Part shown: piece after piece, positions 8,167 to 45,767 of the stretch
Layout: each line of letters begins with the position of its first letter
How positions within the stretch are numbered: the first letter of the stretch is position 1
DNA from: Paenibacillus sp. FSL R7-0204
Lineage (GTDB): Bacteria > Bacillota > Bacilli > Paenibacillales > Paenibacillaceae
Assembly: GCF_038002225.1 (NCBI RefSeq)
Contig: NZ_JBBOCA010000001.1
Coordinates: forward strand, 806,001 to 870,000
Reading direction: 5' to 3'
DNA: 64,000 nucleotides
Notes under the pieces: generated by a model
The model's input: only the letters and a program-made list of their open reading frames with translations
The model's database searches: none
Told to the model about the DNA's origin: nothing
Program-made: the position numbers and the translations under genes

Positions 8167-11100
8167 ATGAAAAAGAAGGTAAGAATAGGCACAGCTATTA
8201 TTATTGCAGGTCATCTGCTGCTTGGTCTGGGCAGTCCGGCTATCGGTATACATACATCAGCGGTATACGCCGCTTCGGAATTCGGAATCAGCATTTCTCC
8301 TGCGAACGGGTCTGCTTTTGTAAATACCGGGGCTTCGCTAGGGCTTAGCTTTGACCGCCAGGTGATCCCGCAAGCCGGGAAAATCACCATTACAGATGTA
8401 AAGGCCGAAACGGTATTTACGGAAATTGCAATCGGGAGTGCAGGGCTAATCGGAAACTCGTCAAGCTACGAGATCAAGCTGGGCTCCAGTCTAAAATTTG
8501 CTCCCTACAAAACATATAGCGTAAGTGTGCCTAAGGGGCTGTTCAAGGATAGTGCAGGCAATGAATCAGCAGCAACAAGCTGGAAGTTCACGACAGCCCC
8601 GGAGGTGAATCCGGCGATTATAGCAAGCAGTATGTCTCCGGCCATCAATTCCAGAGTAGAGGCTGCGAGCTTAACAGAGCTGAGTATACGCTTATCTGGA
8701 GTGCTTACAGCCGGGGGAGGCAGCGTCAGGCTGCTCTCATCAGCGGATAACGCGGTTATACAGGAGTTTGCGATCCGGGAGGGAGAAGCTGGGGTAGCCT
8801 TCCAGAGGGCAGATTCCTCGACAACGGTTACGCTGACGCTGGCTAATAAGCTTCCGTCCGGCGGAAATTATTATGTGCTTATTGATGCGTATGCATTCAA
8901 GGATGCCAATAATACTACTTACCAGGGGATAGCCAGCGGCAGCGGCTGGAGCTTTTCCACGATCGGCACGGGGACTATCTCTGCATCTACGGCTCCGGCC
9001 AACGCCTCTTTTGGTGCATCGGTTAGTGGAGCCCTTAAGCTGTACTTCGACCGCCCGGTGAGTCCGGCTTCGGGAGTGATCTCAGTCTCTCCAGGTGCAT
9101 TAGGGGACCCGGGAACAAGATGGCTGAATGTCAATTCAACGAACGTTACCGGTGGGGGAAGCTCGACAATAACACTATTGCCGGCCTCCGCGGCCTCGCC
9201 GCTGTTGAGCGGTACGCTATATACAGTTACTATACCGCAGGGTGCTTTTTATGATCAGGATGGCCATCTCTTTCCGGCTTCAGGCCCATATTCCTGGACG
9301 TTCACAACAGCTTCGCTGACAACTCTGTCTGTAGCCGCCTTATCACCAGCGGACCGCAGTGAGTCGGTGGATATCTCCAAAACGATTGCGGTTAATTTCA
9401 ACCGGGAGGTTGTCTATAATAGCAACGTCGCGAACGGGGTTGTTTTATACAAGAGCAATGGAGCTAAAGTGACAGCGACAGTTCAGCAAGGACTCTCAGC
9501 CAAAGAATTTATTATTAAACCGTCTGCTGCGCTGGAATCAGATACGATCTATTATATCGACATTGCCAAAGGCGCGTTCACGGATGCCGCAGACCCTAGT
9601 GTACTGTATGAAGGATTAAGCGGTACCAAGTCCTGGAGCTTCCGCACTGTAGCCATAGATAAGACCCCGCCATCGCTGACGAGCGCAGTGCTGGAGAACA
9701 ACCGGACAATCCGCCTGAGGTATAATGAGTCGCTTAATGCTTCTGTGGCTCTGCTGGCTTCCAGCTTCGGGGTGACCGTCAATGAGGAAACCAGGAATAT
9801 TGAGAATGCCTATATTCAAGGAGACAGTGTATTTGTAGTGATTAGCACAGGCATCGCTGTAGGCCAAAATGTAAAAATCAGCTATACCGGCGGTGTGCGG
9901 ACCATTCAGGATACAAGCGGAAATGCTGCGGCTACCTTTTCTGGACAGCAGATCACCAACACTATAGAATCGGCGCTCCCTACGCCCAAAGAAGGCAGAA
10001 TTACAGGCAAAACAGTGACACTGACCTTCAATGATACACTCAAACCGGTCTCTCCATATGCCTATGAACAGTTTGTGGTCACGACTGACGGGTATTCGCT
10101 TGGGGTGAATTCTATCAGTGTCAGCGGCAACACCGTATATTTAACTGTAGGCTCTGAGGTGGGCAATTCGGAGTCGGTCCGGGTGTCCTATTACGCCGGT
10201 TCGTACCCGCTGGTTAGCTCTCTGGGACAGAATATCGCAAACTTCGCTGAGTATAACATTCGCAATAGTAAGGATAATGTTCCTCCCGTGTTCCAGAATG
10301 CGACGGGCGGAGGAAAGAAAATTACAATGAACTACAATGAGGGGTTATCTGACAGCAACCTTCCGATGAACAGCCAGTTCTCGGTCCTGGTGGGCGGCAG
10401 CCCCAATTACGTCACAAATGTTGCAGTACGTGGAAGCAGTGTGACATTAACGCTTCAAAATAACCTGGCAGCTGGTCAAATTGTAACAGTCTCCTATGTA
10501 CCCGGCGTAAAAGGCTTAACTGATCTTAACGGCAACCGGGCTGTGTATGTGGACCTGAAGCCGGTTGATCTGAGCGATATCACAGTATCGGAGATCAGCA
10601 GTGCAACAGTGAACGGTAATGAGCTGACGGTAACTTTTGTCCAAAGTATGTTGACTTCTTCTGCACTGAGCACTTCGCAGTTTGCAGTCAGGTTGAATAG
10701 TACCACTACTCTGGTTCAGAGCTATACCCTAACAGGCAACGTCCTCAAACTAATGCTGGCAGAGTCTGCGGGCAGCGGCCAGACAGTTGATTTATCTTAT
10801 ACTACGGGGACTTCCTTCATTAAGGATCTTAACGGAAATGCACTCGCTTCGTTCTCGCAGCTTCCGGTGAAGAACCTTACTGGAGGTGTGGCGGCTGCTG
10901 TACCAACAGATGTGAACCGTCCAGCTTATCTGGGTACCTTGGAGGCAAGCGAGTTTGGAGAGGCGATCCCGCTACTGAAGAGTGATTCCGCCGTTATCGC
11001 AGCAGACCGCTCAATTTATAGTCAGGATGTTAAAAGATACAGCCTTAATGCAGATAAGCTGACAGCCAGTTACATGTATTTAAATACACAGGGTACGGCT

Positions 11101-37177: not shown

Positions 37178-37297
37178 GATATAGTGAAGCTTCATGGAAG
37201 TTGACGAAAGTTTGGTGAAATAGTGAGCAGGCATTAAGCTGCGAATACTTTTCACAGATGTAGTCTTGCTCTTGAGTTCGTAGGTTATAATGACAAT

Positions 37298-37349
37298 AAA
37301 AAGCGGCTGGGCCCGGGGGACTCCCCGTTTGCGGCCCGGCTGCTTTTTT
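37298..37349 (+). terminator. Terminator after secA
   Basis: A long GC-rich hairpin with outer arms AAAAAGC / GCTTTTT and inner GGGCC / GGCCC and CGGGG / CCCCG pairings, ending in a T run. Confidence 0.85.
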
Positions 37350-37427
37350 GGGCTTGAAGTGGTTTGGGACGCACAGCTGTGCGGCAGACGGGAGCGCTCA
37401 GATGTTTTATGGCTGAGGTGGAAGTAA

Positions 37428-37561
37428 CGGAGGGGAATTTTGGAACTGCAGGAGCGGTAGCGTCCGCCTTTAGGATTGAATTTCTACTGCGATGAGCAGT
37501 TTGAATGAGGAAATTCAATCCTAACAGCGGCCGAAAGTCCAAACATTCCCTGCAGTTACGG
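37428..37561 (+). repeat. Structured repeat element, copy 1 (upstream of prfB)
   Basis: About 134 bases sharing near-identical flanks with 45563-45695. 5' block: CGGAGGGGAATTTTGGAACTG, CAGGAGC, AGCGTCCGCCTT. Middle: a perfect 14-bp stem TAGGATTGAATTTC (37471-37484) / GAAATTCAATCCTA (37510-37523) enclosing a small hairpin ACTGC-GATGA-GCAGT. 3' block: ACAGCGGCCG, AAGTCCAAACATTCC, CTGCAGTTACG. GGAATTTTGGA can pair with TCCAAACATTCC around the whole, and ACTGCAGG with CCTGCAGT outside that helix, giving a possible pseudoknot. It lies about 120 bases before the prfB start. The family is not recognised. Confidence 0.8.
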
Positions 37562-45497: not shown

Positions 45498-45526
45498 TTG
45501 AATTATATATACACAACACATATATA
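45498..45526 (+). promoter_or_regulatory. Possible promoter upstream of the repeat and argGH
   Basis: -35 TTGAAT (45498-45503), 17-base spacer, -10 TATATA (45521-45526). If used, the repeat element at 45563-45695 would be part of the argGH leader RNA. A second -10-like TATAAT lies at 45729-45734, downstream of the repeat, with only a weak -35. Confidence 0.4.
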
Positions 45527-45562
45527 AGATCAACAGGCACTTAGATAGGAGGGTTGGAGGAT

Positions 45563-45695
45563 CGGAGGGGAATTTTGGAACTGTAGGAGCTTCAGCGTCC
45601 GCCTTTGTCTACGGATTTCAACCGCGAACAGCGGTATAAATCAAGAAATCTGTAGACAACAGCGGCCGGAAGTCCAAATATTCTCTGTAGTGACG
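45563..45695 (+). repeat. Structured repeat element, copy 2 (upstream of argG)
   Basis: About 133 bases, same orientation and order of parts as 37428-37561. The first 21 bases are identical; AGCGTCCGCCTT, AACAGCGGCCG and AAGTCCAAA are shared. The central stem is different in sequence, GTCTACGGATTTC (45607-45619) / GAAATCTGTAGAC (45645-45657), but again 13 bp, again enclosing exactly 25 bases, again with a 5-bp hairpin (ACCGC-GAACA-GCGGT) and a 9-base tail. It ends 72 bases before the argG start. The rest of the 313-base argF-argG gap has only the promoter-like sites noted. Confidence 0.8.
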
Positions 45696-45767
45696 TCCAA
45701 AACCCGTTTTTAAAGCCGAAGTTGATCTTATAATCACCCTCCACACCGAAAGGAAGCTAAACACCCC

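Follow-up and report, generated by a model that had tools for sequence, protein, structure and literature searches.

Two short elements that share their flanks and differ in the sequence of their central stems lie on one 64,000-nucleotide stretch of the Paenibacillus sp. FSL R7-0204 genome (hereafter the window), one before prfB and the other before argG. They raise the question of whether selection acts on a folded RNA or on folded single-stranded DNA, and whether such an element is a structured RNA, a cis-regulator or a non-autonomous transposon.

Two copies of one element

A sequence-only reading of the window had reported two copies, and both were recovered, their boundaries differing by a few bases from the cores delimited here by covariance-model matches (37422-37560 and 45557-45695, converted from genome coordinates). 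The model, R1, was built from 37 of 47 host copies aligned structure-free (alignment A2), leaving out seven copies with an insert module, L037 and L050 (just under the length limit) and L055 (no 3' block). The features of the two copies are as follows.

37422..37560, + strand: copy 1, structured core of 139 nt between secA and prfB (R1 match G000:C1:843422-843560, 154.9 bits)
37432..37444, + strand: copy 1, 5' strand of P2, partner 37538-37551 (structure used in the covariation test, converted)
37464..37467, + strand: copy 1, 5' strand of P4, partner 37527-37530 (covariation test)
37470..37484, + strand: copy 1, 5' strand of the central stem P5, partner 37510-37524 (covariation test)
37486..37490, + strand: copy 1, 5' strand of the inner hairpin P6, partner 37496-37500 (covariation test)
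45521..45534, + strand: copy 2, left terminal inverted repeat TATATAAGATCAAC (sequence; 12-base inverted match)
45557..45695, + strand: copy 2, structured core of 139 nt between argF and argG (R1 match G000:C1:851557-851695, 152.2 bits)
45721..45732, + strand: copy 2, right terminal inverted repeat GTTGATCTTATA (sequence; inverted-match search)

The 5' and 3' flank blocks described as shared each have two matches in the window at up to three mismatches and none in 100 shuffles, and the middle block CAGCGTCCGCCTTTG gives a weaker signal (two window matches versus 0.24 expected). As had been read from the letters, the central stem differs in sequence between the copies and is paired throughout in both, with 15 pairs and one or two breathing positions here rather than the 13-14 pairs counted earlier. 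It does enclose 25 bases (37485-37509 in copy 1, with the same gap pattern for copy 2 in A2), and the inner 5-bp hairpin is indeed swapped from ACTGC/GCAGT to ACCGC/GCGGT. Folding energies of both copies fell below those of all 200 shuffles (z = -7.57 and -4.12). The suggested pairing of the outer blocks is likewise supported, being partly invariant in the 37 host copies and replaced by other paired sequence in divergent copies. A pseudoknot between the 5' and 3' CTGNAG blocks was rejected: other copies in A2 carry CTGGAG on both sides, or CTGKAG versus CCGCAG, and these variants are unable to pair as drawn. The terminal inverted repeats of copy 2 were absent from the earlier reading.

A terminator-like hairpin with a T run follows secA at window positions 37297-37348. 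Because this hairpin precedes copy 1, the copy is probably in the prfB leader.

Distribution of the repeat

The prediction that more copies exist in the genome was borne out. Scoring the best 150 of 2408 candidates gave at least 89 R1 matches in the host genome (7.71 Mb, three contigs), with 86 on contig C1 and three on the 107-kb contig C2. A blastn search gave at least 42 matches to copy 1 (40 of 79 candidates scored), and the 21-base 5' block has 73 matches at up to three mismatches versus none for the reversed pattern. R1 matches were present in all 100 sampled genomes of the genus, at least one in each, in 161 of 197 sampled genomes of the Paenibacillaceae (13 of 19 genera), and in 6 of 299 genomes of a phylum sample; of these six, three belong to the genus, two to the family and one elsewhere, the last being a single weak hit (E = 1.4e-4). 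Per-genome match numbers in these three surveys are lower bounds, based on the best 10-32 candidates scored; in the genus survey many genomes had at least 32 scored candidates, and some had few matches (one in G062, two in G012). Searched alone, G056 of the same genus gave 90 matches and G433, of another genus, gave 25. The repeat family is also present in named Paenibacillus species.

Copy 1 had no match in the phage collection or the plasmid collection. No Rfam family fits either the window, which is without any match in Rfam 15, or 12 loci, for which searches at E ≤ 5 or 1 returned three weak matches, all far below the gathering score. We found no description of the repeat family in the literature covered, which mostly excludes subscription journals, where a report may exist.

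Conserved secondary structure

As RNA, the 139-base core is predicted to adopt a single conserved fold, composed of P1, P2, a junction with a two-pair hairpin, P4, the central stem P5 and the hairpin P6. The conserved junction consists of CUGNAGGAGC, a loop that is mostly GNNA (TTCA in window copy 2) and CCGRAAG. A covariation test, recommended in the sequence-only reading, gave a strong signal beyond both shuffled and slid controls. Pairing was found in 91.2% of 1625 cells of A2, both sides had changed at 22 of 44 pairs versus 10.7 when shuffled, and the covariation score was 0.233 versus 0.118 for shuffles (reached by 0 of 500) and at most 0.070 for slid structures; a weaker measure, the number of further pair types, was 53 versus 46.5 shuffled and was reached by 10 of 500. 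Most double changes among the 37 host copies fall in P5, and at one pair of P4 a C-G has become U-A on both sides in three of the 37. P1 is a weak helix (74.6% paired) that is not formed as drawn in type-A copies. Internal loops are conserved in sequence in A2, and the core hardly varies in length: most copies lacking the insert module have one of 138-140 nt.

The same architecture was recovered beyond A2. In alignments fitted to the model, both-side changes were seen at 34 of 44 pairs among 25 matches of G433 and at 39 of 44, P2 included, among 91 matches from argG loci and two further loci. A divergent host subfamily keeps the architecture with a different P2. Pairing was 0.891 in copies without ends and 0.907 in copies with ends (88 of 89 host copies), and 0.894 in antisense (n = 9) versus 0.901 in sense (n = 45) host copies.

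An extra hairpin module (CTGAAAGCTTTCC...) precedes P5 in L034, L044, L056, L058, L059, L060 and L408-L411. Copies of two genera share this insert, and related species differ in whether they have it at one and the same prfB-side position.

The strand under selection

A G-U pair on one strand is an A-C mismatch on the other, so selection on a DNA hairpin predicts equal frequencies of the two. Core counts of G-U to A-C were 92:16 in A2, 193:26 in alignment A5 and 42:20 in alignment A7, these being raw counts inflated by shared ancestry; a sign test per pair column gave p = 0.052, 3e-5 and 0.005, respectively. Within the same 21 copies with ends the core showed 51:4 versus 9:6 in the arms (p = 0.005), and at the argG site 27:5 versus 9:12 in the outer arms (p = 0.0025), shared ancestry inflating both comparisons. 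The contrast between core and arms was not seen in G433, because the outer arms there stand at 20:11. A-C pairs take a higher share in copies without ends (138:40 versus 51:4 with ends, 88 copies), as decay after immobilisation would give; among the best 70 of the 88 copies the counts were 101:20 versus 51:4 (p = 0.15).

Because G-U outnumbers A-C in the core and does not do so in the arms of the transposon, the core of the element is, on the evidence of these substitution patterns, selected as RNA, in the sense of the written strand. The sequence-only reading had offered folded RNA or folded single-stranded DNA as the selected form; the former is supported and the latter is disfavoured.

Terminal repeats and mobility

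Under a strict test, 21 of the 89 host copies keep IS630-type terminal inverted repeats, and because of these ends we conclude that the element moves, or moved, like an IS630-type MITE. The ends are of two main types, CTATATAAGACGCACTAAAG and CTATATAGATTGAACTTAA, found in inverted orientation about 30-45 bases beyond the core, and ends such as CTATATARRTTGAAC and CTATATAGAACGCA adjoin TA. The element is short, is without coding capacity or a transposase gene, and also exists in shortened copies. The sequence-only reading had taken a clean match to known insertion-sequence ends as a point against its proposal; the ends do resemble those of IS630, but no IS630 sequence was seen in the core. Its alternatives of structured RNA or non-autonomous transposon appear to hold at once, in a transposon-type element with an RNA-selected core.

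Mobilisation in trans by IS630-family transposases is likely. An IS630-type transposase fragment (DDE_3) followed by an element-type end is located at L241:2482-2994 (G000:C1:5600108-5600620) and is open for 171 residues, and relatives of this fragment gave matches in 42 of 100 genus genomes. At 11 of 22 transposase loci examined, an inverted pair of element-type ends was found 1134-1173 bases apart; three of these 11 (L245, L248 and L252) have an open frame of at least 344 residues, that of L248 being NF033545, IS630 family transposase. The comparison of filled and empty sites suggested in the earlier reading was informative at the argG-argH spacer, where the core is found in L283 and L286 and is absent from the other 16 of L280-L296 and L303. 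A TA target-site duplication would fit, by eye, at a nested copy in L136 and at the filled L283 spacer; the empty-site flanks had diverged, and no clean duplication was recovered. In that L136 locus, around 1501-1639, the P5-P6 region of one element is apparently interrupted by a second element, which adjoins TA. In the copies at G000:C1:2918917-2919056 and C1:7149503-7149684, the outer arms consist of long inverted repeats with no relation to either main type of end.

Each copy's 45-base arms on the two sides of the core pair better with one another than with the arms of other copies. A copy's own arm partner was the best in 13 of 23 cases in G433 (1 expected), in 10 of 21 host copies with ends, in 15 of 68 host copies without ends and in 6 of 30 copies of G056, and in each case 0 of 5000 permutations were as low; a control with the G433 flanks shifted 100 bases outward gave nothing (2014 of 5000). 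Arm-to-arm copying or selection for pairing could both give such copy-specific arms.

Genomic context and orientation

Gene context was taken from a simple custom gene caller. None of the 89 host copies overlaps a called gene; tandem genes flank 54 of them, convergent genes 20 and divergent genes 15. In the tandem spacers 45 copies are sense versus 9 antisense (p = 7e-7). Corresponding counts were 13 versus 3 for the best 30 loci of G056 (4 of the 30 loci unclassed) and 15 versus 5 for 29 loci of other genomes; the 25 copies of G433 show no sense bias (11 versus 9). All 80 argG-region matches between tandem genes are sense, and these have ancestry and region in common.

Replication strand was examined for the 86 copies on contig C1, of which 62 are on the inferred leading strand. 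Tandem copies number 39 sense versus 5 antisense on the leading strand and 4 versus 4 on the lagging strand, and outside the tandem spacers, between convergent or divergent genes, no replication bias was seen (19 of 34). Because of the even lagging-strand split and the 62 of 86 on the leading strand, replication-driven orientation as a source of the sense bias is not fully separated from transcription. A custom scan found intrinsic terminators upstream of 18 and downstream of one of the 45 tandem sense copies, a pattern that insertion behind the upstream gene's terminator would also give. A leader peptide starting TTG GAA CTG was considered and dropped, as the loop bases, inspected by eye, do not keep a stop codon.

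The argF-argG spacer of 15 genomes, including the host, holds the element in seemingly one place, and because the flanks agree in most genomes (they differ in L292, L294 and L295) this probably represents one old insertion. In the alignment of this site (A4) both sides changed at 22 of 58 pairs and the covariation score was 0.235 versus 0.130 shuffled; further pair types were not above shuffles (206 of 500). Left out of A4 were four loci that likewise have matches close to this site (L281, L284, L287 and L293) and eight with divergent forms (L315, L324, L325, L327, L337, L340, L343 and L347). The spacer in other species lacks the element or has divergent forms of it. Over 80 argG loci, 86 matches were obtained at E ≤ 1e-10, 85 of them on the strand of the arginine genes, and, judged by coordinates, many are in the secA-prfB, argJ-argB, argB-argD and argF-argG spacers and some elsewhere. 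In the argF-argG spacer of L349 (about 9850-9950) we observed a short core-less element with similar ends and a longer duplication; the spacer is otherwise like that of L352 and L353.

Possible roles of the folded core

We propose, with a probability of roughly 0.5, that this is a Paenibacillaceae repeat with an RNA-folding core that is moved by IS630 transposases in trans and acts in cis in host mRNAs. The element would be a MITE carrying a selected mRNA structure, presumably transcribed, and would likely act in cis inside the mRNAs where it is inserted. Under this proposal it would insert into operon spacers and leader regions, and its sense transcript would fold into P1-P6 around the conserved junction. 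The compact fold would keep an untranslated insert from interrupting the operon, with less termination or decay at the insert, and sense copies would be retained while antisense copies are lost more often. Copies without recognisable ends keep the fold about equally well, which would be expected were the element useful at its site or tolerated there only in folded form. Against the cis role, G433 has no sense bias, antisense and sense copies pair equally well, and the lagging strand shows an even split.

Two of these observations also bear on the main rival of a cis role, namely that the RNA works for the element itself, in its spread or its control, for instance as the binding site of a trans-acting protein, the host position being incidental and sense copies being favoured through transcription from host promoters. 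The fold that persists in antisense copies, the lack of a sense bias in G433 and a G-U excess that is strongest in copies with ends (51:4) all suit it, but pairing is also kept where ends are no longer recognisable, and double changes occur at one site in 15 genomes, a pattern that gene conversion from mobile copies could mimic; we consider this explanation possible though unlikely. A plain MITE with long palindromes, whose complementarity arises by arm-to-arm copying in replication with no selection on the fold and whose antisense copies would be lost for other reasons, is improbable. It would account for outer arms that match copy by copy, as in G433 (13 of 23; 0 of 5000 permutations), and many of the about 64 host copies without strict ends do keep paired arms. 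Arm-to-arm copying, however, gives no preference for G-U over A-C, and the core shows one; the conserved internal loops and the narrow range of core length (138-140 in most copies that lack the insert module) also speak against this reading.

We also considered a REP-type element acted on by a REP-associated tyrosine transposase (RAYT), since the 5' block CTGTAGGAGCG resembles the Pseudomonas REP core and 10 matches to the Y1 transposase family PF01797 were obtained in the host genome. The element ends fit IS630 instead, and all 10 PF01797 matches are more than 8 kb away from every one of the 89 copies; this highly improbable candidate was rejected.

Comparison with known repeats

The closest counterparts are the bcr repeats, other bacterial MITEs and IS630-family insertion sequences. 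Like bcr1-bcr18, the family is a set of short intergenic repeats of a Bacillales group. In the Bacillus cereus group, bcr1-bcr3 are described as MITE-like and often located in UTRs or operon spacers, and bcr10 and bcr18 as having conserved secondary structure and a possible RNA function (PMC3446304). Compared by description only, the Paenibacillaceae element differs in that transposon ends and an RNA-selected core occur together in one repeat family, and this repeat family ranges across a bacterial family. It also resembles the Correia/NEMIS, ERIC and RUP MITEs in its small size, TA-associated ends, inverted repeats and folded transcripts, the folding being predicted here; RUP is proposed to be moved by an IS630 element and NEMIS transcripts to be cut by RNase III (PMC2229807). 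Unlike those MITEs as described there, it has a core of fixed architecture with strand-specific covariation, and outer arms that differ between copies and match within a copy. With IS630-family insertion sequences it shares ends such as those noted above next to TA, and it differs from them in having neither a transposase gene nor a recognisable IS630 sequence in its core.

A bolder version of our proposal, which we regard as doubtful, sees a mobile RNA device spread over the whole family, in which an ancient structured RNA travels on borrowed transposon ends and, in the mRNA at its site, serves as a portable insulator or antiterminator that maintains operon expression across the insert, each copy's fold and outer arms being renewed by compensatory change. 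If the proposed reading is true, a structured RNA new to Rfam 15 would be present in every sampled genome of the genus, in operon spacers such as the one before prfB and those of the arginine operon, and annotation would gain a family that Rfam 15 lacks. It would represent a mobile element selected for its RNA fold, not for its sequence or a DNA hairpin, and its numerous copies would serve as natural replicates in studies of what a folded RNA contributes to an mRNA.
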